Below, piece after piece: positions 23,451 to 56,767 of a stretch of 64,000 nt of DNA; the stretch's first letter is position 1, and the number at the start of each line of letters is the position of its first letter. Source of the stretch: Candidatus Eiseniibacteriota bacterium (GTDB lineage Bacteria; Eisenbacteria; RBG-16-71-46; JACRLI01). The notes beneath the pieces are model-generated. The model was given only the letters and a program-made list of their open reading frames with translations. It was not told the origin of the DNA and did no database searches. The stretch lies in the NCBI GenBank assembly GCA_025351485.1, contig JANXVU010000036.1, forward strand, positions 1 to 64,000, given 5' to 3'. The translations under genes were made by a program, and so were the position numbers.

Positions 23451-23470
23451 GCTTCTATCCCGTCCTCGGG

Positions 23471-24250: not shown

Positions 24251-24252
24251 CG

Positions 24253-32441: not shown

Positions 32442-34679
<2,238 letters not shown>

Positions 34680-37609: not shown

Positions 37610-38827
37610 TCAGCCCGCGTACATCTGGAGGTCGGTGCCCACCCGGTCGGCGATGTGGAGCGTGGTCTCAAGATCCGGGTGGCGGACCACCACCATGCCA
37701 TCGGAGGTCAGGGTCTGGAGCCAGTTGCGCCGGGGCGCGCCGACGGGCAGCAGGTCCACGTTCACGATGTGCGGGCCGAACTCGGCCATCAGCCGGCCCA
37801 TGCCCTCGATGCGCTGGATGCGACCCTGGCCGACGGCGCGCTTGAAAATAGACGCGCAATTGTACTTGCGGCTCAGGTCCTGCGAAAGCGTGCCGTGGCA
37901 CACCGCCTCGGCCCAGCCGGTGAACAGGTCGATGTCCGAAACAAAGTTCATCAGGTCCACCGTGCGCGCCCCGGGTGGCCGGGCGCCGATCTCTCCGAAC
38001 ACCACTTCGCCGTCCGCCTTGCGGTGCCATTCCATGTGCGTGAAGCCGTCGCGGTAGTTCATGGCGCGGATCACTTCGTGGCCCATCCGGATGCCCGCCT
38101 GGAGGCCCGGGTCGGACAGGTCGCGCAGCGCCACGGTCTGCGGGCTGATCCACTCCTGCTGGCGCGCGATAAGCGGCCGGGGCCGATACATGCACACGTT
38201 CTGGTACAGGATCCTTCCGCGGCCGCACACGGTGTCGTAGGTGAACTCGTCCGCTTCGATGAACTCCTCGACGCTCACCTCGGTCACATGGCGCAGCTGC
38301 GGCAGGATCCGGTCCAGCTCCTCGCGGCTCCCCACCCGGTGGGTGTCCGCGGAGCCCGCGCCGGCGATGGGCTTGACGATGATGGGATAGCCGATCTTTC
38401 CGGCTGCTTCGATGACCCCGGAGGCGGTGGTGGCGCTGTAGTGGTGCGGAGTGCGGATGCCCGCCTGGTCCAGCACCTGCTTCATGCGCTCCTTGTCGCG
38501 GAACGGGACGGTCTCCGCCACAGTCATGCCCGGCAGCCCCAGGGCCTCGCGGATCCGGGCCGCCAGGAGCATCAGCGGCTCCCACTGCGATTCCACGCGG
38601 TCGATGCGCATGTGGCGGGCGCTCTGCTTGACCTGATCGACGATGGCGTCCTCGTTGGAGTACGAATCCACCTGGAGGTAGGCGGAAAGGCTCGAGAGGG
38701 CGACGGCGGGAAGCGCGGACTCGGACTGGTCGGCCAACCCGATCACGCTCGCGCCCACGCGCTGCAGGCCGCGGGTGAAGTAGGGCATCTCGGCGGGGTA
38801 GCCCGGCGCCAGCATCAGGACGTTCAA
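37610..38827 (-). CDS. ATP-grasp domain protein (paralogue 1)
   Basis: RDKERMKQVLDQAGI, GYPIIVKPIAGAGSADTHRV, SVEEFIEADEFTYDTV, THMEWHRKADGEVVFGEIGARPPGA. Confidence 0.9.
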   Translation of the reverse strand: MNVLMLAPGYPAEMPYFTRGLQRVGASVIGLADQSESALPAVALSSLSAYLQVDSYSNEDAIVDQVKQSARHMRIDRVESQWEPLMLLAARIREALGLPGMTVAETVPFRDKERMKQVLDQAGIRTPHHYSATTASGVIEAAGKIGYPIIVKPIAGAGSADTHRVGSREELDRILPQLRHVTEVSVEEFIEADEFTYDTVCGRGRILYQNVCMYRPRPLIARQQEWISPQTVALRDLSDPGLQAGIRMGHEVIRAMNYRDGFTHMEWHRKADGEVVFGEIGARPPGARTVDLMNFVSDIDLFTGWAEAVCHGTLSQDLSRKYNCASIFKRAVGQGRIQRIEGMGRLMAEFGPHIVNVDLLPVGAPRRNWLQTLTSDGMVVVRHPDLETTLHIADRVGTDLQMYAG

Positions 38828-38843
38828 CGGCTCTCCTCGGGGT

Positions 38844-40064
38844 TCATCCCAGTTCCACCCGGATCACGCTCACCAGGCGGCGCAGCGCGCGGTCCACCAG
38901 GTCGGTGTCGGTGTGCCTCAGCACCACGTAGCCGTCGCCTTCGTAGCTGGAGGAGGGGGCCTGGCCGGGGCGGGGCAGGCGTGATTCCACCACCAGGGAT
39001 CCGATCTCGGAGCCGGCGGTCTCGAGGCCGTGCACCGCCAGCACCCGCCCGCTCCCCTGCCCGCGAATGAACGCGGCCCCGCACGCGTACTGGCGCGGCG
39101 GCGGATCGAACTCCTCGAACACCATGAGGCTCGCCCACAGGCGGTAGAAATCCGCGTCGTGCGCGTAGGAAATCAGAGTCATGAACTGTGCGCCCGGCGG
39201 GCGAACCGCCACTTCCGAAATGGCCACGCTTCCATCGGGACGGAAGAACCACTCCATGTGGGTGAGGCCGGTCTCGAGCCCGAGGGCCTTGAGGCCCCGG
39301 AACGCCGCGTCCCGGATCGGGTCGAACTCGCTCCCGCCGATGTCGCGGGGGAGCAGCACGCACCACTGGATCCACGGGTTCTGCAGCACGTCGAGCGGCG
39401 TGGGGTCGTAGCGGCTGATGGAGTGCCACACCGGTTTGCCGCGCACCATGATGCTGTCGAAGGAATGTTCCTGGCCCACGATGAACTCTTCCAGCAGCAC
39501 CGGCTGCTGCGGCCCCGGCGGATCCACCTCCAGCCAGCGCTCCAGCGCGTCCCTGTTATCCAGGCGAAAGGTGTTCCGGGCGCCCGCGCCGGCCGGCGGC
39601 TTGACCACGATGGGGAGCCCGCTGGTGCGGGCGAACTCGCGCACATCCTCCGCCCCGCGGGCCAGGCGGTGCCGGGCGCACGGCAATCCCGCCGCGCGCA
39701 GCACGTCCTTCATGCGGGCCTTGTCCCGGAAGTTCCGGGCGGTCTCGACGCCCATGCCCGGGATCCCCAGCATGGCCCGCACCTCGGCGAGCGGCACCTG
39801 CAGCTCTTCCAGCGCGCCCATGATCCGGTCCACCGGTCCCAGCCGGGCGGAAATAATACGGACGGCATCCGCGATTTGAACAGGATCGAGGCCGTTTTCG
39901 ATGCGGTAGTGCCCGGCCAGCCGCGCCCGCAGGCGCGGGGGCAGCTTATCTTCCACGTCCTGGCTGACCACCGCCAGCTGGGCGCCCGGAAGGCCGGAGG
40001 CGGCATCGATGAAACGCAGCGTCGCTTCCAGGAAGAAGGGCGCCACGAAGACCACGGTTGGCAT
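38844..40064 (-). CDS. ATP-grasp domain protein (paralogue 2)
   Basis: RDKARMKDVLRAAGL, GLPIVVKPPAGAGARNTFRL, LLEEFIVGQEHSFDSI, THMEWFFRPDGSVAISEVAVRPPGA. Confidence 0.9.
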   Translation of the reverse strand: MPTVVFVAPFFLEATLRFIDAASGLPGAQLAVVSQDVEDKLPPRLRARLAGHYRIENGLDPVQIADAVRIISARLGPVDRIMGALEELQVPLAEVRAMLGIPGMGVETARNFRDKARMKDVLRAAGLPCARHRLARGAEDVREFARTSGLPIVVKPPAGAGARNTFRLDNRDALERWLEVDPPGPQQPVLLEEFIVGQEHSFDSIMVRGKPVWHSISRYDPTPLDVLQNPWIQWCVLLPRDIGGSEFDPIRDAAFRGLKALGLETGLTHMEWFFRPDGSVAISEVAVRPPGAQFMTLISYAHDADFYRLWASLMVFEEFDPPPRQYACGAAFIRGQGSGRVLAVHGLETAGSEIGSLVVESRLPRPGQAPSSSYEGDGYVVLRHTDTDLVDRALRRLVSVIRVELG

Positions 40065-40205
40065 GGGGGCATCCTACCCTCTTGGCCTCCGCGGCTCAAG
40101 ACACGCCGGACCGGGGATGGTAGAATGACGCCCGTCGCGCTTCCGGCGACCCCAAGGCGCCCTCCCGGGACGCCCTCCCGTCCACACCTTCGAGGCCACA
40201 GCCCC

Positions 40206-41429
40206 ATGAACGTCATCTTCATCGAGCCGAGCTTTCCCGCCAACCAGGCGCAGTTCGTGCGCGCGCTGCACGAGGTGGGCGCGACCGTGATCGGGGTCGG
40301 CGAGTACCCCAAGGAGAACCTCACCGACGACCTGAAGCGCCAACTCACCCACTACGAGCAGGTGCCTTCGGTGGTCAACGAGGAGGCGCTCCGCCACGCG
40401 GTGAAGTGGATCCAGGGACGCGTATGGGTGGACCGCCTGGAGGCCACCGTCGAGGCACACATCATGTCCGCCGCCCGGGTGCGCGAGAGCTGCACCATTC
40501 CCGGCACCTCGGTTCGCACCGCGTACCTGTGCCGCGACAAGCCGGCCATGAAGGAAGTGCTGCGCGAGGCGGGCATTCCGTGCGCGCAGTCCACCGCGGC
40601 CTCGTCCGCCGAGGAAGTGCGCGCGTTCGCCGCGCAGGTGGGCTTTCCCCTGATCCTCAAGCCGCGCGACGCCGCGGGCGCCTCGGGCACCCACAAGGTG
40701 GACAACGCGGAGGAGCTGGAGGCGGCCATTCGCGTGACCGGCGTGGACCGGGGGGCGGGCTTGGCGGTGGAGGAGTTCATCGAAGGGCACGAGGGCTTCT
40801 ACGACACCATCGCGGTGAACGGCGAGGTGGTGCACGAGTTCGTCTCGCACTACTACCCGAACGTGCTGGAGGCCATGCGCACCCGCTGGATCTCGCCGCA
40901 GTTCATCGCCACCAATCGCCTGGACAGCGTCGCCGATTACGGGGAGCTCAAGGACATGGGCCGGCGGGTGATCAAGGCGCTGGGGATCGGCACTTCGGCC
41001 AACCACATGGAGTGGTTCTACGGGCCCAAGGGGCTAAAGTTTTCCGAGATCGGCTGCCGGCCCCCGGGAGTTCGCGCCTGGGACCTGTACGGGGCGGGCA
41101 ACGACATGGACATCTATCGCGAATGGGCCATGGCCGTGGTGCACGGCCATCCCGGCTCCAAGGCCTCGCGCCGCTTCGCCGCGGGCCTGATCGCCTTGCG
41201 TCCCGACCGCGACGGCCAGATCGCGGGATACGAGGGCCTGCAGGAGATCCAGCGCAAGTATGGCGAGTGGATCCTGGACTTCCATCTGCCGCCGGAGGGA
41301 ACTTCCACCCAGGGCGTGGAGGCCGGGTACATGGCCAACGCTTGGGTCCGGATGCGGCACCCGGACTACGACGCGCTTCACGGCATGCTGGACGAGGTGG
41401 GCCGCACGGTAAAGGTGCGCGCGCGGTGA
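40206..41429 (+). CDS. ATP-grasp domain protein (paralogue 3)
   Basis: RDKPAMKEVLREAGI, GFPLILKPRDAAGASGTHKV, AVEEFIEGHEGFYDTI, NHMEWFYGPKGLKFSEIGCRPPG. Confidence 0.9.
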   Translation: MNVIFIEPSFPANQAQFVRALHEVGATVIGVGEYPKENLTDDLKRQLTHYEQVPSVVNEEALRHAVKWIQGRVWVDRLEATVEAHIMSAARVRESCTIPGTSVRTAYLCRDKPAMKEVLREAGIPCAQSTAASSAEEVRAFAAQVGFPLILKPRDAAGASGTHKVDNAEELEAAIRVTGVDRGAGLAVEEFIEGHEGFYDTIAVNGEVVHEFVSHYYPNVLEAMRTRWISPQFIATNRLDSVADYGELKDMGRRVIKALGIGTSANHMEWFYGPKGLKFSEIGCRPPGVRAWDLYGAGNDMDIYREWAMAVVHGHPGSKASRRFAAGLIALRPDRDGQIAGYEGLQEIQRKYGEWILDFHLPPEGTSTQGVEAGYMANAWVRMRHPDYDALHGMLDEVGRTVKVRAR

Positions 41430-42358
41430 AGGTCGTCCTCCTGGGTCCCCAGCGGCACGATCCGAATCTCGGCGCCACGGTGCGCTCGCTCGAATTCCAG
41501 GGCCGGGTGGCCACGGTGACCGCGGGCTGGCAGGAGCGCGAGGCGGACGACGCGGAACTGTGCGAGCACCTGGGCCACCGGTGCGTGAATCTCGAGCTGT
41601 ACCGCCGCGCTTCGGATGTGTTCCGGCGCGACCCGGAGCTGGACGCGGCCCACCAGGCACGCCAGGAACGGCTGCACCGCATGCAGGACCTCTACACCAT
41701 CCGGCTGAACCACGCCGCGGACGCCTGCCACGCCCTGGCCTCGAGCGATGCGCCCGACACCCTCAAGCTGCAGGAGCTGGCCGGGGCGGTGGAGGCGCTG
41801 CGGACGCTGGACCGGGAGCACCTGGGCCACGTCGCCGAGGTGCACGCGGAATTCGTCGTACGCTTCCGGCCGCTGGAGCGCGAAGGCGTGGCGTCCATGC
41901 GGGGCGAGCTGGCCGCAATCCTGAGAGACGTGTCCGCGCTGGTGGTGGCCGGAGGCCACGTGGCGGTGCTGCTCAACCGGCTGCGCCTGTTTGGAATCGT
42001 GGAATTGCTGGGGGACCGTCCGGTCATCGCCTGGTCCGCCGGCGCCATGGCGGTGAGCGAGCGCGTGGTGCTGTTCCACGACGATCCGCCGCACGGGCCC
42101 GGCCATCCCGAGGCGCTGGAGAACGGACTGGGGCTGATCCCGCGCGTGGTGCCTCTTCCGCATGCCCGGTACCGGCTCCATCTGGACGACCCGGGGCGCG
42201 TTTCGCTGATGGCGCGACGCTTCGCGCCGGCCGCCTGCGTGCCGATGGACGGGGGCGCCCGCCTGGACTGGAACGGCGCTGCGCTGTGGGCCCCGCCGGG
42301 CAACTACCTGATGGAAGAAAGCGGCGCCATCCGCGAGCTGGCGGAGGCCTCCGCGTGA
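41426..42358 (+). CDS. Peptidase S51 (PepE/cyanophycinase)-like, class I GATase-fold protein
   Basis: RPVIAWSAGAMAVSERVVLFHDD Ser-type nucleophile elbow; GTG start overlapping the upstream stop (GTGA). Confidence 0.6.
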   Translation: MKVVLLGPQRHDPNLGATVRSLEFQGRVATVTAGWQEREADDAELCEHLGHRCVNLELYRRASDVFRRDPELDAAHQARQERLHRMQDLYTIRLNHAADACHALASSDAPDTLKLQELAGAVEALRTLDREHLGHVAEVHAEFVVRFRPLEREGVASMRGELAAILRDVSALVVAGGHVAVLLNRLRLFGIVELLGDRPVIAWSAGAMAVSERVVLFHDDPPHGPGHPEALENGLGLIPRVVPLPHARYRLHLDDPGRVSLMARRFAPAACVPMDGGARLDWNGAALWAPPGNYLMEESGAIRELAEASA

Positions 42359-43509
42359 GCGGGACCGCGACCGTCGGCCTGGCCATCCACGACCTTGCCA
42401 CCCGCGGGGGCGCGCGCCCCGAAGCGGTGGACGCGTTTCTTTCCGCGCACCGCTTTCCGCTGGTGGAAGGCTCGGGCTGCACGTTCGTCTTCCGGGGCCA
42501 GGCGGACGGCGTGAACCTCAAGCACTGGGTGTTCGGCCTCCCGGCCTCGCAGGCCTTTCACCGGGTGAACGGAACCGACCTGTGGTACCTGGTGGTGGAG
42601 CTGCCGCCGCGCTCAAGGGTGGAATACAAGTTCGAAGTGGTGCGGGGCGGCAACGGGACGTGGATAGAGGACCCGCTCAACGACCAGCACGCCCACGATC
42701 CGTTCGGGTCCAATTCGGTGGTGCACGGCGCGGGCTACGAGGAGCCTGACTGGATCCGGCCCAATCCCACCACGCGCCCGGGCTCGCTCAGGTCCATGGT
42801 GTTCCGCAGCCCGGCCCTCGGGGGAGACCGGCAGGTGACGCTGTACCTGCCGGCGCGCTACCGGACCACCCGGCGCTACCCGCTGCTGGTGGTTCACGAC
42901 GGATCCGACTACCTGCGGTTTTCCAGCATGCAGACGGTGCTCGACAACCTGATCCACCGGCTCGACATTCCCGAGATCATCGTGGCGCTCACCGACCCGG
43001 GCGACCGCCTGGCGGAGTATGCGAATCTGGAAGCGCACTCCCGCTTCCTGGTGGAGGAACTGGTGCCCCAGCTGGAGAAGGAGCTGCCGCTGGCCGCCAC
43101 GCCGGACTCGCGGTGCCTGATGGGAGCCAGCTTTGGCGCGGTGGCGACCCTTTCCACGGCCGTCCGCCGCCCAGGCTACTTCGGCCGCCTGATGCTCCAA
43201 TCGGGCTCATTCGCGTTCACCGACATCGGGCCCAGCCGGCGGGGCCCCGTCTTTGAGCCGGTGGTGGAGTTCGTGAACGAGTTCCGCGCGCGGCCCCGCA
43301 AGGTGGCCGACCAGGTGTTCGTGAGCTGCGGCACCTACGAATCGTTGATCTACGAGAACCGCTCCCTGGTGCCGGTGCTGCAGTCCACCGGCATGGAGGT
43401 CCGGTTCGTGGAGGCCCGCGACGGGCACAACTGGGAGAACTGGCGGGACCGCATGCGGGAAGGCCTTTCGTGGCTATTCCCCGGCCCCCTCCGGATGGTG
43501 TATGAATAG
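42355..43509 (+). CDS. Esterase family protein (enterochelin esterase/Fes-like, N-terminal E-set domain)
   Basis: N-term VNLKHWVFGLPASQAFHRVNGTDLWYLVVELPPRSRVEYKFEV; RTTRRYPLLVVHDGSDY; RCLMGASFGAVATL GxSxG; DGHNWENWRDRM His motif. Confidence 0.88.
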   Translation: MSGTATVGLAIHDLATRGGARPEAVDAFLSAHRFPLVEGSGCTFVFRGQADGVNLKHWVFGLPASQAFHRVNGTDLWYLVVELPPRSRVEYKFEVVRGGNGTWIEDPLNDQHAHDPFGSNSVVHGAGYEEPDWIRPNPTTRPGSLRSMVFRSPALGGDRQVTLYLPARYRTTRRYPLLVVHDGSDYLRFSSMQTVLDNLIHRLDIPEIIVALTDPGDRLAEYANLEAHSRFLVEELVPQLEKELPLAATPDSRCLMGASFGAVATLSTAVRRPGYFGRLMLQSGSFAFTDIGPSRRGPVFEPVVEFVNEFRARPRKVADQVFVSCGTYESLIYENRSLVPVLQSTGMEVRFVEARDGHNWENWRDRMREGLSWLFPGPLRMVYE

Positions 43510-43585
43510 GGGCTCACTTTTCCTGGAATCCATTCCCAGCCCGGGGGGCCGGCTTGCCCTCGACCCCCGGAATCCGAGGTAGCCC

Positions 43586-44854
43586 ATGGCCACCGTGGTT
43601 CGCAAAATAGGCCTGTCGCTCGGGGCCGACATCTGTTGGCCGATCTGCTACGAGGAGATCCTCAAGCGGCTGGACCTCGGCGTTCCCTCGGGCACCGACA
43701 CGCTGCGCTTCGAGACTGAGCGGGTGACCATCGAGCCGTTCGACCTGCGCCAGCCCTGCCAGTACGACCTGGTGATCGACCGTCTCACGCACTGGTACCA
43801 CACCAGCCGCGAATGGATCAAGAAATCGGTGGTGATGGACGGGCTCTACGTGTTCAACAATCCGTGGGCGGTGCAGGCCATGGAAAAGCACACTTCCTAC
43901 TGCGCCATGATGCGCCTGGGATTTCCCATCCCCGACACCTGGATGGTCCCGCCCAAGGAATACGAGCCCAAGCCCGACCTGGACGTGACGCTCAGTCGCT
44001 ACGCGCAGCTGTTCGACCTGGGCAAGATCGGCGCCGACGTGGGCTATCCCATGTTCATGAAGCCCTACGACGGCGGCGGCTGGGCCGGCGTGAGCCGCAT
44101 CGACGACGAAGAGGCGCTGCGATCCGCCTACGACAAGAGCGGCCGCCACCTGATGCACCTGCAGCGCGCGGTGGACCCGCACGACCTGTTCGTGCGCTGC
44201 ATCGGGCTGGGCCCCCAGGTGCACTTCGTGAACTATGATCCGGCCCGGGCGTTGCACGACCGCTACACCATGGACCTGGATTTCCTGGGGGAGGGCGAGA
44301 GGTCCCTGCTCCGCGACATGACGCTCACCATCAACAGTTTTTTCGGATGGGACTTCAACTCGTGCGAAGCCCTGCGGCAGGGCGGGACCTGGCATCCGAT
44401 CGACTTCGCCAACGCCTGTCCCGACTCGCAGGTCACCTCGCTCCACTACCACTTCCCATGGCTGGTGAAGGCGAATCTCCGGTGGTCGCTGTTCTGCGCC
44501 GCCACGCGGCGCCCCATGCGGGTGAACCAGGACTGGCAGCCCTTCTTCGACGTGGCCGAGACCGACCTGCCGTTCCGCGAAAAACTGCGCCAGTACGCGG
44601 CCATCGCCGAGAAGCGCTTTGACACTGCCAAGTTCGAGAAGTTCTGCGACAAGCACCTGGCAGGGCTGGACGAGGCGGCGTGGGAGTTCTTCGGGACCGA
44701 CCTGGCCCGGGACGCGGTGCGCCAGAAAGTTTCCGCGCTCTTCCCGGCCCACGAGGTGGAGGAGTTCACCGGGATGTTCTGGGCCCGCATCCAGGGCTGG
44801 CGCGAAGACAACAGCCCCAGGGCGGCCGCCGCTGCGGTGCGGAGGAAGCCGTGA
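43586..44854 (+). CDS. ATP-grasp family protein (divergent, RimK-like region)
   Basis: VVMDGLYVFNNPWAVQAMEKHTSYCAMMRLGFPIPDTWMVP; GYPMFMKPYDGGGWAGVSRIDDEEAL; HPIDFANACPDSQVTSLHYHFPWLV. Confidence 0.75.
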   Translation: MATVVRKIGLSLGADICWPICYEEILKRLDLGVPSGTDTLRFETERVTIEPFDLRQPCQYDLVIDRLTHWYHTSREWIKKSVVMDGLYVFNNPWAVQAMEKHTSYCAMMRLGFPIPDTWMVPPKEYEPKPDLDVTLSRYAQLFDLGKIGADVGYPMFMKPYDGGGWAGVSRIDDEEALRSAYDKSGRHLMHLQRAVDPHDLFVRCIGLGPQVHFVNYDPARALHDRYTMDLDFLGEGERSLLRDMTLTINSFFGWDFNSCEALRQGGTWHPIDFANACPDSQVTSLHYHFPWLVKANLRWSLFCAATRRPMRVNQDWQPFFDVAETDLPFREKLRQYAAIAEKRFDTAKFEKFCDKHLAGLDEAAWEFFGTDLARDAVRQKVSALFPAHEVEEFTGMFWARIQGWREDNSPRAAAAAVRRKP

Positions 44855-45585
44855 AGGAGACTTCGCGCTGGCACAGCCAGCGGCTCGGACGCGAGGTCAC
44901 GCTGGCCCGCTGGGGCAGCTTTGGCGTGCCGGTCCTGATCTTTCCCACCGCCGGAGGGGACGCGGAGGAGATCGAGCGGTTCCACATCATCTCGGCGCTG
45001 GGGGACCTGATCGGAGCGGGCCGGATCAAGGTGTACTCGTGCGACAGCGTCGCCGGCCACGCGATGGTGACCCAGGAAGGCTCTCCGCGGCACCGCATGT
45101 GGATGCTGAACCAGTTCCAGGAGTACGTACGCCACGAAGTGGTGCCGGCCATCCGCATGGACTGCCGATCCGAGGGCATCGAGATTGTGAGCGCGGGCGC
45201 CTCCATCGGGGCGTTCAACGCGCTGGCGGTGCTGTGCCGCTATCCGGACGTCTTTTCGCGTGCCATCTGCCTGTCCGGCACCTACGACCTGCAGCGCTTT
45301 CTTGAAAATGCGTGGAGCGACGATTTCTACGTCGCCTCGCCGCTCCACTATCTGCCCAACCTCGAGGGGCCGCACCTGGAGGCGCTCCGCAAGCGCCTGG
45401 TGATCCTGGCTTCGGGCCAGGGCCGCGCCGAGGACATCGGCGAATCCTGGCGCGCGGCGCAAATACTGGGCTCCAAGGGCATACCGAACCGCGTCATGCC
45501 GTGGGGCGAGGAGTGGCCGCACGACTGGCCGACGTGGCGCAAGATGCTTCCGATCTATCTGGGCGAGCTGGATTCGCAGGCTTAG
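44851..45585 (+). CDS. Alpha/beta hydrolase, esterase family
   Basis: VLIFPTAGGDAEEIERF; EIVSAGASIGAFNAL nucleophile elbow; YPDVFSRAICLSGTYDLQRF; GTG start overlapping the upstream stop. Confidence 0.85.
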   Translation: MKETSRWHSQRLGREVTLARWGSFGVPVLIFPTAGGDAEEIERFHIISALGDLIGAGRIKVYSCDSVAGHAMVTQEGSPRHRMWMLNQFQEYVRHEVVPAIRMDCRSEGIEIVSAGASIGAFNALAVLCRYPDVFSRAICLSGTYDLQRFLENAWSDDFYVASPLHYLPNLEGPHLEALRKRLVILASGQGRAEDIGESWRAAQILGSKGIPNRVMPWGEEWPHDWPTWRKMLPIYLGELDSQA

Positions 45586-45611
45586 GACTTGGGCATGAAG
45601 GCGGAGGCCTG

Positions 45612-47525
45612 ATGGGCACCCACAAAATCCAGGGCGAATTCCAGGGCGAAGAGCGGCGCGTGTTCATGCGCTACCTGCTCCGGGACCTGCGCGCCATGGA
45701 GCACATCCTGGCCAACGGCCTGCTGGAAGAGGGCGTGCGCCGCGTGGGCGCCGAACAGGAGATGTTCCTCCTGGACCGCCACAACCTGGCCGCGCCCGCG
45801 GCGCTGGACGTGCTCAAGCGCGTCAACGACCCTCATTTCACCACCGAGCTGGGACTGTTCAATCTGGAAATGAACCTGGACCCGCTGCTGTTTGGCGGGG
45901 ACTGCCTGAGCCGCATGGAGGAGCAGCTCCAGGGCCTGCTCGGCAAGCTCCGCGCTTCCATCGCCGACCTGGACGTGAAGGCGCTGCTCACCGGCATCCT
46001 GCCCACCATTCGAAAATCCGACCTGGGGCTCGAGAACATGGTGCCGCTGCCCCGCTACCAGGCGCTCAACCAGGCCATGAGCCGGATGCGCGGCGGGGCC
46101 TACGAGTTCTACATCAAGGGGCTGGACGAAATCCTGGTGAAGCACGACTCGGTCATGGTGGAAGCGTGCAACGCCAGCTTCCAGGTGCACTTCCAGGTGG
46201 GCGCCTCGGAATTCGCCAACCTCTACAACATCGCGCAGGTGGTGGCCGGGCCGCTCCTGGCGTGCGCCACCAACTCGCCGCTTCTGTTCGGCCGAAGGCT
46301 GTGGGCGGAGACGCGCATCGCCCTGTTCCAGCAGGCCGTGGACACCCGCTCGGTGGGCCACCACCTGCGCGAGAGCAGCCCGCGCGTGACCTTCGGCAAC
46401 AGCTGGGTGAAGGAATCGGTGCTGGAGCTCTACAAGGAAGACATCTCGCGCTTCCGCACCCTGGTCGGCACCGGGCTGGACGAGGATCCGTTCGAAGCGC
46501 TGGCCAGGGGCGAGGCCCCGCAACTCAAGGCGCTGCGGCTGCACAACGGCACCGTGTACCGCTGGAACCGCGCCTGCTATGGGATCATGAACGGCAAGCC
46601 GCACCTGCGGATCGAGAACCGGGTGATGCCCTCGGGGCCCAGCGTGGCCGACGAGATCGCCAACGCCGCGTTCTGGTTCGGCATGGTGAGTGGCCTGGCC
46701 TTCAAGTACGAGGACATCACCAAGGTCACTGAGTTCGAGCACGCCAAGATGAACTTCGTGGCCGCCGCCCGCGGCGGCCTGGGCGCGCACATGACCTGGC
46801 TGGAGGGCGAGGAGTTGCCCGCGCCCCGGCTCATCCTGGACCGCCTCCTGCCGCTCGCGGAAGAGGGCCTGGCCAAGGCCGGCGTGGACCAGGCTGACCG
46901 AGACCGCTATCTGGGCCTGATACGGGAGCGCGTGGGCTCGGGCCGCACCGGAACACGGTGGATATTACAGTCGCTCGCGGGAATGAAGGAGCAGGGCACC
47001 CAGGGGGAGCGCCTGAACGCCGTGACCGCCGCCATGCTGGAGCGCCAGCAGGAGGGAACTCCGGTGGCCGCCTGGGAACTCGCGTCCCTCGCCGAAGGCG
47101 GCGGCTGGAAGCAAAACTACTTGAAGGTGGAGCAGTACATGACCACCGACCTGTTCACGGTGCACGCGGACGATCCGGTGGACCTGGTGGCCAACCTGAT
47201 GGAGTGGCAGCGCATCCGCCACGTGCCGGTGGAGGACTCCCAGCACAAGCTGATCGGGCTGATTTCCTACCGCGCCATCCTGCGCCTGATGGCCCGCGGC
47301 ACCCTGGAGCGCAACCGCGACGGCCTGTGCGCCGCCGACATCATGAAGCGCGACCCGGCCGTGATCGGCCCCGAGATGTCCACGCTGAGGGCCATCGAGC
47401 TGATGCGCCGACTCGCGGTGGGGTGCCTGCCGGTGGTGCAGGACGGCAAACTCGTGGGCCTGGTCACCGAGCACGATTTCATGGACATCGCCGCCGAGCT
47501 GCTGGAACAGAAGCTGAAGGAATGA
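45612..47525 (+). CDS. Carboxylate-amine ligase (GCS2 family, glutamate-cysteine-ligase-like) fused to C-terminal CBS domain pair
   Basis: VGAEQEMFLLDRHNL, TTELGLFNLEMNLDPLLFGGDCL, CNASFQVHFQV, PHLRIENRVMPSGPSVADEIANAAFW; C-term VEQYMTTDLFTVHADDPVDLVANLMEWQRIRHVPV...ADIMKRDPAVIGPEMSTLRAIELMRRLAVGCLPVV. Confidence 0.92.
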   Translation: MGTHKIQGEFQGEERRVFMRYLLRDLRAMEHILANGLLEEGVRRVGAEQEMFLLDRHNLAAPAALDVLKRVNDPHFTTELGLFNLEMNLDPLLFGGDCLSRMEEQLQGLLGKLRASIADLDVKALLTGILPTIRKSDLGLENMVPLPRYQALNQAMSRMRGGAYEFYIKGLDEILVKHDSVMVEACNASFQVHFQVGASEFANLYNIAQVVAGPLLACATNSPLLFGRRLWAETRIALFQQAVDTRSVGHHLRESSPRVTFGNSWVKESVLELYKEDISRFRTLVGTGLDEDPFEALARGEAPQLKALRLHNGTVYRWNRACYGIMNGKPHLRIENRVMPSGPSVADEIANAAFWFGMVSGLAFKYEDITKVTEFEHAKMNFVAAARGGLGAHMTWLEGEELPAPRLILDRLLPLAEEGLAKAGVDQADRDRYLGLIRERVGSGRTGTRWILQSLAGMKEQGTQGERLNAVTAAMLERQQEGTPVAAWELASLAEGGGWKQNYLKVEQYMTTDLFTVHADDPVDLVANLMEWQRIRHVPVEDSQHKLIGLISYRAILRLMARGTLERNRDGLCAADIMKRDPAVIGPEMSTLRAIELMRRLAVGCLPVVQDGKLVGLVTEHDFMDIAAELLEQKLKE

Positions 47526-48538
47526 ACTCCCCCTCATCTTCCCACGCCTCCCGCCCGGAAGACGGGCCGGCCCTGAAACGGCTGCTCGGCCGCGTGCGCG
47601 GGGAGCGTCCCGGCCCCACCCTGATCGCCATCGGCGGGATGCACGGCAACGAGCCCGCCGGAATCGGCGCGGTCCGGCGCGTGCTGCCGGCGCTGGAGCC
47701 GCTCGCTTCCGGCATGCGCGGCGAGTTCGTGGCCCTCGCGGGCAACCTGGGCGCGCTGGCCCGGAACAAGCGGTTCCTGGCCAGGGACCTGAACCGCCAG
47801 TGGACCCCCGAACGCATCGCCATGCTTCGCGCGGCCGGCAACCTGTCCGCGCGCGAGAGCGAAGACCGCGAGCAGCTGGAACTGTTGGACGCGCTGGAAG
47901 AGATCCTTCTCCGCTCGCGCGGCCGGGTGTACCTGCTGGATATGCACACCACCTCCGCCCAGGGCGTGCCGTTCTCGGTCGCGGGAAGCGAGGCGCGCGC
48001 GCTGGACTTTGCGCTCCATTTTCCCAGCGTGATCCTGCTCGGGCTGCAGGGAGTCCTGGGCGGCGTGCTCACCGAATACCTTGCCTCGCGCCACTGCGTG
48101 GCGCTGGCGGTGGAGGGCGGCCAGCACGAATCGGCCACCGCCGTGGACTGTCACGAGGCGCTGCTGTGGATGGCGCTCGCCGCGGTGCACATGCTGCCGC
48201 GCTCGCGGGTGCCTGCCCTGGAACGTTACCGAGGCATACTGGAAGAGGCGCGGGGTTCCCTGCCCCGGGTGATCGAGGTCCTGGACCGGCATGCCATCGC
48301 CCCCGAGGACCAGTTCCGGATGGAGCCGGGGTACGCCAATATCCAACCCGTCCGAAGGGGCGCCCTGCTGGCGCGTGACCGCTCGGGCGAGATTCGTTCG
48401 CCCGGGGACCGGCTCATCGTGATGCCGCTCTATCAGGCGCTGGGCGACGACGGGTTCTTCCTGGGCCGCGCCAAGTGGTGGTGGCGGCTCCGGGTCAAGG
48501 TGGCGCTCCGGATCCTTAAAGGAGAGTTGCTCCGCTGA
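47522..48538 (+). CDS. Succinylglutamate desuccinylase/aspartoacylase family zinc hydrolase
   Basis: LIAIGGMHGNEPAGIGAVRRVLP, RDLNRQWTPERI, YLLDMHTTSAQGVPFSV, LAVEGGQHESATAV; ATGA overlap with the upstream gene. Confidence 0.9.
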   Translation: MNSPSSSHASRPEDGPALKRLLGRVRGERPGPTLIAIGGMHGNEPAGIGAVRRVLPALEPLASGMRGEFVALAGNLGALARNKRFLARDLNRQWTPERIAMLRAAGNLSARESEDREQLELLDALEEILLRSRGRVYLLDMHTTSAQGVPFSVAGSEARALDFALHFPSVILLGLQGVLGGVLTEYLASRHCVALAVEGGQHESATAVDCHEALLWMALAAVHMLPRSRVPALERYRGILEEARGSLPRVIEVLDRHAIAPEDQFRMEPGYANIQPVRRGALLARDRSGEIRSPGDRLIVMPLYQALGDDGFFLGRAKWWWRLRVKVALRILKGELLR

Positions 48539-49449
48539 TGCGATTTCCGCTCCTGCTTCGCCCGCTGGTGCTGCTTCTTCCCGCCCTGCTCCTCGCCACT
48601 TCCACGCCGGCCCGCGCTTCCAACAGGCAAAGTCCCCACGCCGGCCCGGCCCTGGTCCTTGATCCTGCGCGTCCCGGCGTGGGCGACCTGGCGCTCGCCA
48701 CCCTGCGCGGCGCGCCCCCGCTGCGGTCTCTGAAGGGCGAGTGGCTGGGGCACACCGTGGAGTTCGAACGGGGCGCACGTTCGGCCACGTGGCACGCGCT
48801 GATCGGCTCCGGGCTCACGACGGCCTCGGGGGAATACCCGCTGAAGCTGACCGGCGAACTCCCGGGCGGAACCCCGTTCGAGTTCGCGCGCCAGGTTCGG
48901 CTGCAGGAGGTGCGATTCGCCACTTCCCGCCTGCGGGTGGCCGAAAAATTCGCGTCGCCGGACTCTCAGCAGCAGCTGCGCATCCAGGCCGAGCGTGCGC
49001 TCAAGGACAGCCTGTTCCACCACGGCGCGGATTCCTCGCTATGGTCGGGCCGGTGCGTGACTCCAGTGAAAGGAAGAACCTCGGAGCGCTTCGGAACGGC
49101 GCGGGTGTTCAACGGGGAAAAGCTTAGCGTGCACGAAGGGTTGGATTTTCGCGCCCTGCGGGGCACTCCGGTGCGCGCGGTGAATTCCGGGAAGGTGCTG
49201 CTGGCCCGGGCGCTCTTCTACGAAGGGAACTGCTTGGTGCTGGACCACGGAGCGGGGCTGTTCACGGCCTACATGCACCTCTCGAAGTTCCAGGTGCGAG
49301 AAGGCGACCCGGTGCGCAAGGGCCAGCGCCTGGGGCTGAGCCGCGCCACCGGCCGGGTGACCGGCCCGCACCTGCACCTGTCCGCCCGTTGGGACGGCGT
49401 GCCGGTCAATCCCTCCACGCTGCTTTCACTCCACCTTCCGGTCCGCTGA
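48538..49449 (+). CDS. Secreted M23 family peptidase (LytM-like)
   Basis: Signal peptide; VHEGLDFRALRGTPVRAVNSGKVLLARALFYEGNCLVLDHGAGLFTAYMHLSKFQVREGDPVRKGQRLGLSRATGRVTGPHLHLSARW. Confidence 0.95.
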   Translation: MRFPLLLRPLVLLLPALLLATSTPARASNRQSPHAGPALVLDPARPGVGDLALATLRGAPPLRSLKGEWLGHTVEFERGARSATWHALIGSGLTTASGEYPLKLTGELPGGTPFEFARQVRLQEVRFATSRLRVAEKFASPDSQQQLRIQAERALKDSLFHHGADSSLWSGRCVTPVKGRTSERFGTARVFNGEKLSVHEGLDFRALRGTPVRAVNSGKVLLARALFYEGNCLVLDHGAGLFTAYMHLSKFQVREGDPVRKGQRLGLSRATGRVTGPHLHLSARWDGVPVNPSTLLSLHLPVR

Positions 49450-49955: not shown

Positions 49956-51311
49956 CTAGTTCTTCAGCAACTTCTCCGTCTCCGTGAACACCTCTTCCAG
50001 GATGTCCAGCCCTTCCATGGCAGTGGCTTCGTCCAGCACCAGCGGCGGGTTGATCCGGAAGCTGTTGGTGTAGGCCATGGTCAGCAGACCCTTCTGGATG
50101 GCGCGCAGGAAGATGCCTTCGCAGATCTTCTTGTCCAGGCGCTCCCTGGTGTCCTTGTCCTTCACGAACTCGCAGCGGATCAGCATGCCCTTGCCATCCA
50201 CTCCGCCGATGAACGAGAACTTCTTCTCGAACTCCTTGACGCGCTCCAGCATCTTCGCGCCGACCCGTTTGGAGTTTTCCACCAGCTTCTCGTCCCGGAT
50301 GATCTCGATGGAGGCGCGCGCGGCGGCGGCGGCCATCGGGTTGCCGCCGTAGGACGACGAGCTGCCCGAGGCGTTGCTCCACGGCGGGGTGAAGGCGATC
50401 TTGTCGGTGGTGATCACGCCGGCCAGCGGGAAGCCCGCGGCGAAGCCCTTGCCCACGGTCATGATGTCGGGAACGATGCCGTCGTGGTTCACCCCGAACC
50501 ATTCACCCGAGCGGCCGAAGCCGGTGATCATCTCGTCGGCGATCAGGAGCGCGCCGAATTCCTTCGCGATCTCCTGGATCTTCTTCATCGCGCCCGGAGG
50601 CGGCACCACGTTGCCGTTGGTGCCCTGGATGGGCTCCACGATGATCGCGGCCACCGAGTTGGTGGTGGTGGTCTTGATCAGGTCGCGGGCGAAGTCCAGG
50701 CAATGCAGGTTGCAGGTCGGGAACTTCATCTTGAACGGGCAGCGGTAGCAATCGGGGTAGGGGGTCGAGTACAGGCCCGGCATGAGCGGTCCCATGCCGT
50801 GCTTGAAGGTGGAGCCCAGCACTCCCAGGACGCCGCCGGTCTTGCCGTGAAACCCGCCCCAGAATCCCACCACCTCGAATTTCTTGGTGTAGGCCTTGGC
50901 CAGCCGGATGGCCGCCTCGACCGCCTCGGCGCCGCCGCTGTAGAACTGCACGCGGTTCAGGTCGCCCGGGGTCACTTCGGCCACCAGCTCGGTCACTTTG
51001 ACGCGGTTCTCGGAAGTGAAGCTGCCCACCGCCACGCGCTTGATCTGCCCGGTGAGCATTTCCACCCACTTGGGGTGCGAGTGGCCCAGGGCCGCCACGT
51101 TGATGCCGGCGATGAAGTCGATGTAGCGGTTGCCGTCCACGTCGGTGAGCGTGGAGCCCTCGCCGTGGTCCATCACCAGCTGGGACATCAGCGCGAAGCC
51201 CTGCGTGCCCGGGGCCAGGTGCTGCTGCTCCTCCTGGAAGAGCGCCATGGACCTGGGTCCGGGGATGGCGGTCTTCCGGATGACGGCGGGGGTCTTAGTC
51301 GATTCTGCCAT
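49956..51311 (-). CDS. Class III PLP-dependent aminotransferase
   Basis: YIDFIAGINVAALGHSHPKWVEML; QFYSGGAEAVEAAIRLAKAYT; GALLIADEMITGFGRSGEWFGVNHDGIVPDIMTVGKGFAAGFPLAGVITTDKI. Confidence 0.95.
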   Translation of the reverse strand: MAESTKTPAVIRKTAIPGPRSMALFQEEQQHLAPGTQGFALMSQLVMDHGEGSTLTDVDGNRYIDFIAGINVAALGHSHPKWVEMLTGQIKRVAVGSFTSENRVKVTELVAEVTPGDLNRVQFYSGGAEAVEAAIRLAKAYTKKFEVVGFWGGFHGKTGGVLGVLGSTFKHGMGPLMPGLYSTPYPDCYRCPFKMKFPTCNLHCLDFARDLIKTTTTNSVAAIIVEPIQGTNGNVVPPPGAMKKIQEIAKEFGALLIADEMITGFGRSGEWFGVNHDGIVPDIMTVGKGFAAGFPLAGVITTDKIAFTPPWSNASGSSSSYGGNPMAAAAARASIEIIRDEKLVENSKRVGAKMLERVKEFEKKFSFIGGVDGKGMLIRCEFVKDKDTRERLDKKICEGIFLRAIQKGLLTMAYTNSFRINPPLVLDEATAMEGLDILEEVFTETEKLLKN

Positions 51312-52116
51312 GGGCACGGGCCTCTTTCAGGATCTGGTCGGCGATCTTCACCGAAGCGCGGTCGCGGAAGCGGGCGAAGCTCGGCCAGTCGTTCAGGTCA
51401 ATCAGGGTGATGCCGCGATCGTGCACCACCAGGTCTCCGCCGTAGATGGACAGTCCCGTGGCCCCGGCGGCGCGTTCGGCTTCCTCGCGCAGGACCTCGG
51501 GGTCCACCGGGCGGGTGCCCGGACCCTCGGAGTGATACCACTCGAAGAACCCGTTCTTGTGAATTCCATAGAACTTGATGACGTCCCCGACGATATGCTC
51601 CTGGAGCACCGCCCGGTCGATGCCGCGCTCGCTCATGGCCTTGAGCACCGCGCCGGCCTCGCCGACGCCGTCCACCTTGACCACGTCGGACTTCTGGGTG
51701 GCGTGCACGTCGCCGCGCTTGACCCACATGGAGCCCATCTCCGCGGCCTCCCCGGGGAGCCGGTCGTCCGCGGTGTCCACCACCAGGGTGCGCGGGAAGG
51801 GAACCCCGGCCTCGGCGAAGCGCTCGGTCATGTAGGTGCGGTAGCAGTTGCGGACCGAGCCGTAGGAGTTGATCAGGAGCTTGCCCTGCTCTTCCAGCCG
51901 GTTGAGCCAGGCCATGCTGCGGGGCCCCTGGCACATGTGGAAGACCACCGGGCCCTGGATGCTGGCCGTGGGCAGGTCGTCCTCGCTCACCATGTCCACG
52001 CGATACCCGCGGGCCTCGATGGCCTCGCGGGTGAGTCGCATGATGGCGGCGTCATTGGATTCGTGGTTCGGGGAAAACTCGACGGATCTCGCGATCCCCG
52101 TAAAATGTGGGGTCAT
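51295..52116 (-). CDS. ATP-grasp-like (RimK/D-ala-D-ala ligase-type) protein
   Basis: Start MTPHFTGIARSVEFSPNHESNDAAI; INSYGSVRNCYRTYMTERFAEAGVPFPRTLVV; MWVKRGDVHATQ; YGGDLVVHDRGITLIDLNDWPSFARFRDRA; 4-nt overlap with the next gene. Confidence 0.75.
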   Translation of the reverse strand: MTPHFTGIARSVEFSPNHESNDAAIMRLTREAIEARGYRVDMVSEDDLPTASIQGPVVFHMCQGPRSMAWLNRLEEQGKLLINSYGSVRNCYRTYMTERFAEAGVPFPRTLVVDTADDRLPGEAAEMGSMWVKRGDVHATQKSDVVKVDGVGEAGAVLKAMSERGIDRAVLQEHIVGDVIKFYGIHKNGFFEWYHSEGPGTRPVDPEVLREEAERAAGATGLSIYGGDLVVHDRGITLIDLNDWPSFARFRDRASVKIADQILKEARAHGRID

Positions 52117-52820
52117 GAAGATGGCTCCCAGAGGGCCACGTATTCCTCGGCGGCCCTCACGTCCTGCGGTCGGTCCACGTCGACCGTCTTGGGAAGGCGG
52201 TGACCGTGGAGGCGGAAGCCCGAGTCGACAAGGTGTCCCAGGAAATTCCGCATCTTTTGGATGCCCAGCGACTCGGCCCTTTCGAGTTCGGGCCAGATGC
52301 AGGGTGTGAAATAGTAAATGCCCGCGGTGACCCATCGGGCGCCGCGGAGCCCCGTTCCCAGGCGGGTGATCCGATCACCCCGCATCCGCACGCACACCGG
52401 CTTCTCGTCGTCCACGAAGGATGTCAGGGCGAGCGTGCCGTGCGATCCGCGCCGGGCCCTGGCGGCCGCTGACATATCCGCGAGCGCCCCGGGGGGCATG
52501 ATGGAATCGACCATGGCGACCAGCGCGTCCTGATCCCGAAAGAAGGGACTCAGTTCCAGGAGGCTGTGCATGGAACTAAGTGTCGACCGTACCACAAAGT
52601 GGATGGGAAGCGGTAGCCCGAGGCCCAGAACCCGGTCGCGGACCGCAGTGGAAGCCTCGTTGACAATAATGTGAACGGATTCGGCGCCGGCGGCGTGGAG
52701 TTGCTCGATCGTCCTGTGAATCAACGACTTACCGCCGATTTCCAGCAACGGTTTCAGCACCGGCTCGCCCTGGCCCTGAAGGCGGAGCCCCTCGCCGGCA
52801 GCCAGGATCCCGGCCTTCAA
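52113..52820 (-). CDS. Nucleotidyltransferase family protein (sugar-phosphate/phosphoalcohol cytidylyl- or uridylyltransferase type)
   Basis: MKAGILAAGEGLRLQGQGEPVLKPLLEIGGKSLIHRTIEQLHAAGAESVHIIVNE; VAMVDSIMP. Confidence 0.88.
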   Translation of the reverse strand: MKAGILAAGEGLRLQGQGEPVLKPLLEIGGKSLIHRTIEQLHAAGAESVHIIVNEASTAVRDRVLGLGLPLPIHFVVRSTLSSMHSLLELSPFFRDQDALVAMVDSIMPPGALADMSAAARARRGSHGTLALTSFVDDEKPVCVRMRGDRITRLGTGLRGARWVTAGIYYFTPCIWPELERAESLGIQKMRNFLGHLVDSGFRLHGHRLPKTVDVDRPQDVRAAEEYVALWEPSS

Positions 52821-53509
52821 ATTGTTTCACCCCAAAGGCTTGGGAATTCGCGGACACTTTCCAGGGTGTGGTCGGGACGAAAGTCGGTGGCGCGTGGGAT
52901 GACGCCCTGGATCCAGACCGTGCTGAGCCCCAGGGCGCCGGCCGGCCGGAGGTCCATGTCCACCGAGTCTCCCACCATGGCCGTCTCCCCGGGCGCGGCG
53001 CCCAGGGTGGCGAGGGCATGCCGGAAGAAGGCCGGGTCGGGCTTTCGAAGCCCCACCACCGCCGAATCGAACACCGAGTCGACCAGGGCCAAGAGCCCCT
53101 CTTCCCGCAGGATGATCTCGAGGTTGCCCGTGAAATTGGAAAGGATGCCCGTCTTCACGCGCCCTTTCAGGAGCCTTAACACGGCCGAATTGCGGGCCAG
53201 GTAGTCTCGGGTCTCGAGGGTGAGCCTCCGACCGGCCTCGTCCGCCACCGCTTCGGTGGGATGGCCGAGGTCCCTGAGCATCAGCGCGCATTGATAGCGG
53301 ATGACGGCAGGAAGGTTCATCGCTTTGACCGCGGGGTCGGAATTGACCACGCGCTCGGAGGCCCTGAACACGTCGTCCAGGGCCTCCGGGGCGTAGCTCA
53401 GTTCCATGGAGCGGAAGGTGGAGTCGAACCGGCGGCTCCAGTGGATCCCGTCGCCGTCGAGTGTTCCGCCGAAGTCGAACAGCACCGCGGCCCAGCGGAG
53501 AGAGTTCAC
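52817..53509 (-). CDS. HAD-superfamily hydrolase
   Basis: AAVLFDFGGTLDGDGIHW motif I; TGILSNFTGN motif II; GLRKPDPAFFRHAL; MVGDSVDMDLRPA; GTG start overlapping the upstream stop. Confidence 0.9.
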   Translation of the reverse strand: MNSLRWAAVLFDFGGTLDGDGIHWSRRFDSTFRSMELSYAPEALDDVFRASERVVNSDPAVKAMNLPAVIRYQCALMLRDLGHPTEAVADEAGRRLTLETRDYLARNSAVLRLLKGRVKTGILSNFTGNLEIILREEGLLALVDSVFDSAVVGLRKPDPAFFRHALATLGAAPGETAMVGDSVDMDLRPAGALGLSTVWIQGVIPRATDFRPDHTLESVREFPSLWGETI

Positions 53510-54486
53510 CGCACTCCGGCCATGGTGGGCCGGCCGGCGTGGGCCGGGTCCGGGGTCGGCGATTCGGCCCGCAGTTCCGTCAGCAGCCGGCCGCTGGGGC
53601 CCCGCTGGATGGCCGTGAGGATGATGGCGTATGCGGAAAAGCCCACCGCGGTGATCCAGAGGTAGGCCTCGGGGCGGCGGCTCAGGATGCTGGCGGAAAG
53701 CGCCACCAGGTGCATATTCGATCCAAGGTAGTTCCACCACCGCACCATCTTGCGCTGCTCATGCCCGTAGCGCGCCGCGAAGGATTCCGAAACCTGCCCG
53801 CCCTGGAAACGCTCCTCGATGGCCATCTTGAGCGGTTGGTAGGTGGGAGTGGTCCGCGCCAGGCGGCGGGCGTACGACTTGTACAGGCCCAGCATCAGCC
53901 TCTTCCCCAGGGACTGGCCGGCGGCCTCGTCGCGCTGGGCGCGTTCCAGGGCCTGCAGCGAGTCCTCGTCGGCGGCTTCCCGCTTCTTCACCACGCGGAT
54001 GTACTCGGTTCGGTAAAAGTCATAGAGGGAACTCTGGAAGGAATGGGCGAACAGGGCCGCCAGGGCCAGGAGCGGGTAGGTCCAGTCCCCGGTGTCCAGG
54101 TACAGGCCGATTCCCAGGACCGTGTAAATGGTCAGGAACAGGGCCATGCTGCACATTCCGTCGATGATCCGGCCGTACCGGGATGGGCGGGTGGAAAGCC
54201 GGGCCAGCTGGCCGTCGGCCGCGTCCAGCACTTCGGAAGTCCAGAGCAGCACCACCGCCAGGACCAGCGCCGCATAGGACGGTCCGAAAAGGAAGAACGC
54301 CGAGGCCATGCCGATGAGCATGCCGCCCACGCTGACCTGGTTCGGGGTGATCTTCAGGGGCAGGAAGGCGGCGGTGAAAAGCACCGCCACGGGCCGGCAG
54401 AAGTACCGGTCCAGGTTCTCCTCGATCTCCCAGGCTTTGAACACCTGTCGGGACTCGAGTTCTTCCCGAAGGCTGCGAAGGCTCAT
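53506..54486 (-). CDS. CDP-alcohol phosphatidyltransferase family membrane protein
   Basis: SEVLDAADGQLARLSTRPSRYGRIIDGMCSM matches DxxDGxxARx8GxxxD of the family; multiple TMs. Confidence 0.85.
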   Translation of the reverse strand: MSLRSLREELESRQVFKAWEIEENLDRYFCRPVAVLFTAAFLPLKITPNQVSVGGMLIGMASAFFLFGPSYAALVLAVVLLWTSEVLDAADGQLARLSTRPSRYGRIIDGMCSMALFLTIYTVLGIGLYLDTGDWTYPLLALAALFAHSFQSSLYDFYRTEYIRVVKKREAADEDSLQALERAQRDEAAGQSLGKRLMLGLYKSYARRLARTTPTYQPLKMAIEERFQGGQVSESFAARYGHEQRKMVRWWNYLGSNMHLVALSASILSRRPEAYLWITAVGFSAYAIILTAIQRGPSGRLLTELRAESPTPDPAHAGRPTMAGVR

Positions 54487-54570
54487 TGACTCTCCATGGA
54501 TGGTCGGTATCCAGCGGAGGCATCATCCCAGAGCCGGGACCCGAGGGCAAGGGCGCCCCGGGCCGGGCCC

Positions 54571-55608
54571 TCAGGCGGGGAGGCGCTCCCCGGAAAGCTC
54601 GATGGTCCGGCCCTCGGCGCTGGAACGGTAGCAGGCCTCCAGCGTGCGCACGGACGACCGGGCCTCTTCCCAGGCATCCCGGGAGTAATCCCCCTTTTCC
54701 ATGCGGCCCGCGAATTCCCGGAACATGGGCACGAACCACTCCGAGTGGGACGAATTGGCCGACATCCCGGACTCGAACTTCAACTCCTGTTCGGTGCCGC
54801 CCGAGACCAGCACGATCCGGTCGTCGGACACCCGGATTTCCCCGGTGGAGCCCACCAGGCGGCTGGTGATCTCGCGCACCGGCGAGGCCCAGGTGAAGCC
54901 CAGGCGCGCCACGGCGGCCGGGTATTCCAGGATCACGCTGGCGGTGTCCTCCACCGCGTAGGCCTCGGGGCGCAGCGACTGCATGCGCGCGGTGACCCGG
55001 ATCGGATCCCCCAGCACCGAGCGCAGCTGGTAGACCACGTGGGCGCCGTGGTCCATCATGATGCCGCCGCCCGCGCGAGCGGGATCGGTGCGCCACGAGG
55101 GGTCCCAGGCCGAGTTTCCAGGGTTGGCCTCTTTCCGCCACACGGTCCATTCCACGAAGCGAAGTTCGCCGATTGCCCCCGAGCGCACCGCCGCGACCAC
55201 CGCCTTCCAGGGCGGGGCGTGGTGGTACTGGTGGCCCACCATGAACACCAGCGGCTTGCCCTCCAGGACCACGGCCAGCTCGTCGGCCTCGGCGGAGGTG
55301 CGGCACAGCGGCTTTTCACAGAAGATGTGGGCGCCCCTGCGGGCCGCCTCGCGGATCATGGCGCCGTGGGTCGAGGGAGGAGTGCAGATGTCCACGAAGT
55401 CGGGTTTTTCGGCGGCCCACAGGGCGTCGGAGGAATTGTAGGTCCGGATTTCAGGCCAGGCCTGCCGGATCGCTTCCAGGTTCGACGGCGCCAGGTCGCA
55501 GCACGAGGTGATCGACATTCTTTCCCGCAGGGCGGGATCGGAGGCCAGGGCCTCCAGGTGTCCGCGGCGGGCGATGTTGCCGGCGCCGAACAGCGCTCCT
55601 TGAAGCAT
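54571..55608 (-). CDS. Gfo/Idh/MocA family oxidoreductase
   Basis: MLQGALFGAGNIARRGHLEAL; HIFCEKPLCRTSAEADEL. Confidence 0.92.
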   Translation of the reverse strand: MLQGALFGAGNIARRGHLEALASDPALRERMSITSCCDLAPSNLEAIRQAWPEIRTYNSSDALWAAEKPDFVDICTPPSTHGAMIREAARRGAHIFCEKPLCRTSAEADELAVVLEGKPLVFMVGHQYHHAPPWKAVVAAVRSGAIGELRFVEWTVWRKEANPGNSAWDPSWRTDPARAGGGIMMDHGAHVVYQLRSVLGDPIRVTARMQSLRPEAYAVEDTASVILEYPAAVARLGFTWASPVREITSRLVGSTGEIRVSDDRIVLVSGGTEQELKFESGMSANSSHSEWFVPMFREFAGRMEKGDYSRDAWEEARSSVRTLEACYRSSAEGRTIELSGERLPA

Positions 55609-55616
55609 GGTTTCTC

Positions 55617-56636: not shown

Positions 56637-56767
56637 GGGCACAAAATACCACAGCGGGTCGGGATAGCGCACCTGTTCCGCCCCCCGTTCCGGCCCCTTG
56701 TACGCCGGGCGGCCGCGTGGCAGAATCCCTCCCTCGAACCCAACCCGTTCCTCCGATCGAGAGGCCT

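Follow-up and report, generated by a model that had tools for sequence, protein, structure and literature searches.

A conserved set of amino-acid ligases and hydrolases in a Candidatus Eiseniibacteriota genome, with a possible link to glycogen-like polymers

The window analyzed here comprises 64,000 nucleotides of contig JANXVU010000036.1 (positions 1 to 64,000; assembly GCA_025351485.1) from a Candidatus Eiseniibacteriota bacterium, and contains at 40206-49449 an operon of eight plus-strand genes, A to H, that combines predicted amino-acid ligases with hydrolases. A first-pass annotation, made from the sequence of the window alone, had described this gene set, its order and its tight coupling, and these are confirmed. 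Five of the seven junctions overlap by 1-4 nt (A/B, B/C, D/E and F/G by 4 nt each, G/H by 1 nt), and spacers of 76 and 26 nt separate C from D and E from F, respectively. Other genera and families have orthologs of the operon genes with 50-77% identity, so the coding calls are not due to chance. The boundaries of the system differ from those initially proposed. Two divergent ATP-grasp genes, m1 and m2 (37610-40064, minus strand), had been missed and are conserved partners, so that the system reaches upstream of the operon. The secreted M23 peptidase H (48538-49449, plus strand; Pfam M23, 9e-29) had been included in the proposed eight-gene set and is rejected as a member, as it is absent from related clusters. 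The conserved system thus consists of seven of the eight operon genes (A-G) together with m1 and m2.

Three of the ligases, A (40206-41429, plus strand), m1 (38844-40064, minus strand) and m2 (37610-38827, minus strand), are ATP-grasp proteins that have solved L-amino-acid ligases as their best structural match (4wd3, E 6.5e-41, profile positions 46-399 of 407), with 4wd3, 3vot and BacD as the closest structures for A. Their likeness to this family (4wd3, BL00235, BacD) extends over most of the length, which places all three within it, and dipeptide-type ligation is the reaction to be expected of them. Unlike those ligases, they are three co-conserved paralogs in one system with a glycogen synthase. 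In a tree of the A/m family, A, m1 and m2 form three separate, well-supported clades (100/100 for m1, 100/99 for m2), each occurring in more than one phylum, indicating that the paralogs are old. The m1 orthologs at two related loci of the window's class (L025 and L026) are 61-62% identical, and L026 also encodes an m2 ortholog (67% identity) that adjoins both m1 and the gene for the glycogen branching enzyme GlgB.

The ligase D (43586-44854, plus strand) does not match any Pfam family. Its AlphaFold model (predicted local distance difference test score, pLDDT, 75.9) has the ATP-grasp fold of RimK (5zk6), ArgX and D-Ala-D-Ala ligase (Ddl), which are its nearest relatives by fold. The score against the NCBIfam model rimK_fam is 21.5 bits for a cut-off of 143.4, so the relation to RimK is one of fold and not of family membership; D further differs from RimK in its size (~420 amino acids), a long C-terminal helical part, the lack of a Pfam match and an identity of 15%. 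D is the best marker of the system. A shorter D-like ATP-grasp protein (~300-440 amino acids, E ~1e-40) is common in the Acidobacteria phylum (L115-L122 and others).

In F (45612-47525, plus strand) a GCS2 carboxylate-amine ligase domain, scoring 25.6 bits against a Pfam gathering cut-off of 21 (E 9.7e-6), is fused to a pair of CBS domains (Pfam CBS, 1.7e-26). A structure search with F returned, among the best 60 matches, CBS-domain structures only. At three loci (L002, L003 and L004) F occurs alone, with no other cluster genes nearby in the DNA examined, and it may have a wider role. A GCS2 protein that lacks the CBS part and is 30-39% identical to F (L034-L052, L033) is encoded in 25 of 296 sampled genomes from the order of an Alteromonadaceae metagenome-assembled genome (MAG).

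The operon also encodes four conserved hydrolases. C (42355-43509, plus strand) matches Pfam Esterase (4e-23) and, weakly, Enterochelin_N. Its AlphaFold model (pLDDT 86.8) matches CBM48-CE1 esterases and Fes, and C shares with Fes and the CBM48-CE1 feruloyl/acetyl-xylan esterases the two-domain fold, with a CBM48-like N-terminal domain, and the catalytic layout. It differs from these enzymes in that no signal peptide is seen in its sequence and that it is linked to ligases and to a glycogen synthase paralog, GlgA-II (see below). Moreover, C carries a CBM20, a starch-binding domain, in place of this N-terminal domain in three Alteromonadaceae genomes. E (44851-45585, plus strand) is a second esterase of the alpha/beta-hydrolase type (Pfam Esterase, 4e-9), with invariant GxSxG and HDW motifs. 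G (47522-48538, plus strand) is an AstE/aspartoacylase-type Zn hydrolase with AstE (1yw6) as its structural match; the Zn ligands (H-x-x-E and H) and the catalytic Glu expected of such an enzyme are invariant in 10 homologs as H41, E44, H142 and E198.

The family classes initially assigned to the ligases and hydrolases (ATP-grasp, GCS2, esterase, AstE-like) were right, with a qualification for B (41426-42358, plus strand), which had been called PepE/cyanophycinase-like. B is weakly S51-like, with 22.0 bits in the window against a Pfam cut-off of 23.9 and 26.6 bits for the homolog in L062, and lacks an NCBIfam match. It is not a uniform S51 peptidase: the presumed catalytic residues, assigned by motif and not by structure, are present in 25/31 (Ser) and 19/31 (His) homologs. 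The weak S51 likeness and the variation in these residues make the role of B uncertain.

The first-pass annotation had suggested a search of other phyla for the same gene set, and we find that it indeed recurs well beyond close relatives. Core genes are present in the window's class, in the Acidobacteria phylum, in the phylum of the 'Proteobacteria' MAG carrying L004 (hereafter the L004 phylum) and in Alteromonadaceae; the first three of these are taken as separate phyla on the basis of non-overlapping genome samples. Genomes deposited under the names Acidobacteria, Alteromonadaceae, Glaciecola and 'Proteobacteria' encode close relatives of F (47-58% identity). In the window's class, 7 of 47 genomes encode a full-length or almost full-length F, and exactly these seven also have D (Fisher, 1.6e-8), even where the two genes are on different contigs (G028). 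In the L004 phylum, D is encoded by about 98 of 331 genomes; the Acidobacteria phylum has it at full length in 17 of 347 genomes, and the family to which the Alteromonadaceae MAG belongs in 3 of 250. Family counts across the loci surveyed are 42 for D, 32 for C, 31 for B, 26 for E, 23 for A/m, 13 for F, 11 for G and 9 for GlgA. A search for plasmid-borne relatives gave none at 1e-10.

Gene order is conserved as well. Three loci of the L004 phylum (L123, L125 and L126) have the identical order GlgA-A-B-C-D-E-F-G, and a fourth (L127) shares it through F. L025 keeps the conserved order with a divergent m1, as does L026 through F, where the contig ends. In Alteromonadaceae D-C-A-E share a strand, and F-G are encoded on the opposite one. 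The units F-G and D-E-m1 can stand alone; together with the solitary copies of F this indicates that the system is modular. As additional partners we considered the Suf genes and a gene for a 1057-amino-acid protein beside the Acidobacteria clusters, and rejected them, as they occur at only 5-7 loci that share one neighborhood.

Taken together, A-G with m1 and m2 probably constitute a conserved, uncharacterized bacterial pathway that joins amino acids and takes them apart again. It had been anticipated that the set does not map onto a characterized pathway, and in agreement with this no NCBIfam equivalog above its cut-off and no defense-family match were found in the libraries used.

A possible context for this pathway is provided by the glycogen genes. 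In the window, m1 and A are separated by a divergent intergenic region of 141 bp (40065-40205) only; in L025 and L026 a glycogen synthase is encoded at this position. GlgB, which adjoins m2 directly in L026, is one gene away from m2 in the window (32442-34679, minus strand). In a maximum-likelihood tree the glycogen synthases of the operons and those of genomes G025, G028, G045 and G921 form one clade (100/100), here called GlgA-II, separate from the ordinary GlgA that these genomes encode. GlgA-II has the starch-synthase catalytic domain (E 5e-75) and the KTGGL and EPCG motifs in common with glycogen synthase GlgA (GT5). In contrast to ordinary GlgA, it forms a separate clade, is operonic with the ATP-grasp gene A and is absent from the genome of the window. 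Most genomes with GlgA-II also keep another GlgA-type copy, and the separate ordinary GlgA in several operon-bearing genomes indicates that GlgA-II is an extra copy.

The association of GlgA-II with the system is seen in both position and distribution. GlgA-II directly adjoins A in about 20 genomes from three phyla, and does so even where the B-C-D block is located elsewhere (G028, G045 and G921). In the window's class it is present in 5 of 7 D-positive and 0 of 40 D-negative genomes, and the scores are well separated (at least 570 bits versus at most 425 bits). Three D-negative members of family f10 have partial GlgA matches (53-59%), which were considered as exceptions and rejected, as the tree places them outside the GlgA-II clade. 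Of the 32 GlgA-II genomes in the L004 phylum, 30 are D-positive (p 1e-15), with GlgA-II called by score (E <=1e-125) and not from a tree of all 32; the co-occurrence counts of GlgA-II and D, including this p value, are not corrected for shared ancestry. At a further locus (L146), GlgC and GlgA are encoded a few genes from the B-E block, with an amylase on the other side.

We consider it possible, with a probability of about 0.45, that the window holds most of an amino-acid or peptide ligation pathway whose function is coupled to an alpha-glucan (glycogen-like) polymer. What the comparison shows directly is the protein families, their catalytic motifs, the conserved gene order, the co-occurrence and a separate GlgA-II clade; the chemistry of the product, its covalent bond to the glucan and a role of the CBS pair in sensing energy are inferred. 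Up to five ligases (A, m1, m2, D and F) would join amino acids or related carboxylates by amide or ester bonds, and C, E, G and perhaps B would hydrolyze or trim the product or set it free. Ligation could be tied to the adenylate level via the CBS pair of F. GlgA-II would supply the alpha-glucan, to which C could bind via its CBM48-like or CBM20 domain. Many relatives encode GlgA-II in the same operon, so the product is probably bound to the alpha-glucan, primed on it or stored together with it. Going further, the product might be a biopolymer of a new class, in which amino acids or short non-ribosomal peptides substitute or prime an alpha-glucan; a dedicated glycogen synthase and up to five ligases would produce it, and glucan-binding esterases would remodel it. 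This more specific proposal seems unlikely.

Several observations weigh against a coupling to glucan. The genome of the window lacks GlgA-II and encodes only an ordinary GlgA, on another contig, and 68 of the 98 D-positive genomes of the L004 phylum lack GlgA-II as well; the link to glucan is therefore not obligatory. CBM48-type domains occur also in xylan esterases and Fes, neither of which acts on glycogen. Finally, B does not have a conserved catalytic pair across the 31 homologs.

The strongest alternative is that the system makes a soluble, non-ribosomal oligopeptide-like metabolite, such as a stress protectant, an osmolyte or a nitrogen or carbon reserve, that is co-regulated with glycogen and has no covalent link to it. 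L-amino-acid ligases produce free dipeptides, and pairs of GCS2 and ATP-grasp enzymes produce glutathione-like peptides, so the ligases found here fit such a product; the many D-positive genomes without GlgA-II and the solitary F-G and D-E-m1 units point in the same direction. What a soluble metabolite leaves unexplained is the existence of a separate GlgA-II clade tied to A, and the presence of CBM20 and CBM48-like domains on C. We regard it as quite conceivable, if itself short of probable. The fold that D shares with RimK and ArgX, which add residues to proteins, would also be compatible with a tagging system in which a protein or ribosomal peptide receives amino acids from D and the other ligases and loses them again through the hydrolases. 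Predicted amidoligase gene clusters, reportedly defined by Iyer and colleagues in 2009 and linked by them to tagging, are the same kind of system, with ATP-grasp and GCS2 ligases alongside peptidases. Yet three amino-acid-ligase paralogs and a glycogen synthase are not expected for tagging, and no precursor family is shared among the clustered neighbors, a comparison that covers proteins of at least 70 amino acids, which makes this explanation improbable.

A known pathway hidden under diverged sequences (cyanophycin, glutathione or ergothioneine metabolism, or enterobactin hydrolysis) is less probable still. Single genes do weakly resemble cyanophycin synthetase, GCS2 and Fes, but all NCBIfam scores are far under cut-off, and no complete pathway of these kinds is found in the operon or its conserved neighbors. 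For cyanophycin synthesis or degradation in particular, A scores 43 bits against the NCBIfam synthetase model, whose cut-off is 877, and B, as noted, has no match. A known anti-phage defense system was rejected, as PADLOC gave no match for nine proteins. That unrelated housekeeping genes have come together by chance or local inheritance could be argued from the M23 peptidase and the flanking genes, which are not conserved; it is refuted by an order and co-occurrence that persist in four groups of different phyla, even in genomes where parts of the system are separated, and can hardly be entertained.

The surroundings of the operon hold further genes of potential interest. The adjoining minus-strand region 49956-56672 encodes a class-III aminotransferase, an ATP-grasp-like open reading frame (ORF) without a Pfam match, a HAD hydrolase, a CDP-alcohol phosphatidyltransferase, a GFO/IDH/MocA oxidoreductase and a nitrilase-family protein, and may be a separate biosynthetic cluster. 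The first two of these genes (49956-52335) were considered as partners and rejected, as they are not conserved with the system. On the other side, adjoining GlgB, the plus-strand region 26522-31819 encodes a putative peptide-type ABC transporter with two lipoprotein-like and two permease-like ORFs, which could import peptides, and three minus-strand genes at 22518-25038 resemble an Mla/MCE-type lipid transport set (MlaD-, MlaF- and MlaE-like); both assignments are by reading of the sequence only. In one genome of the Acidobacteria phylum, a sulfotransferase and glycosyltransferases are encoded directly after A (L144:13176-17651).

In the literature searched, no report joins ATP-grasp ligases to bacterial glycogen synthesis or describes this gene set; the 2009 work on amidoligase clusters lies outside that coverage, and an earlier description is possible. 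A large review from 2024 on the alpha-glucan enzymes of prokaryotes (PMC11046441), as far as it was covered, makes no mention of ATP-grasp. Amidoligase clusters are an already known kind of prediction, and the tie to a glycogen synthase would be the new element. This link, through GlgA-II, the CBM20 and CBM48 domains and GlgB, is not visible from the window alone. At least four bacterial groups from different phyla retain a set of up to five ligases and four hydrolases, which in three of the groups is tied to a dedicated glycogen synthase paralog. Should the coupling prove real, an uncharacterized amino-acid product would be carried by, or accompany, bacterial glycogen or a related polymer.

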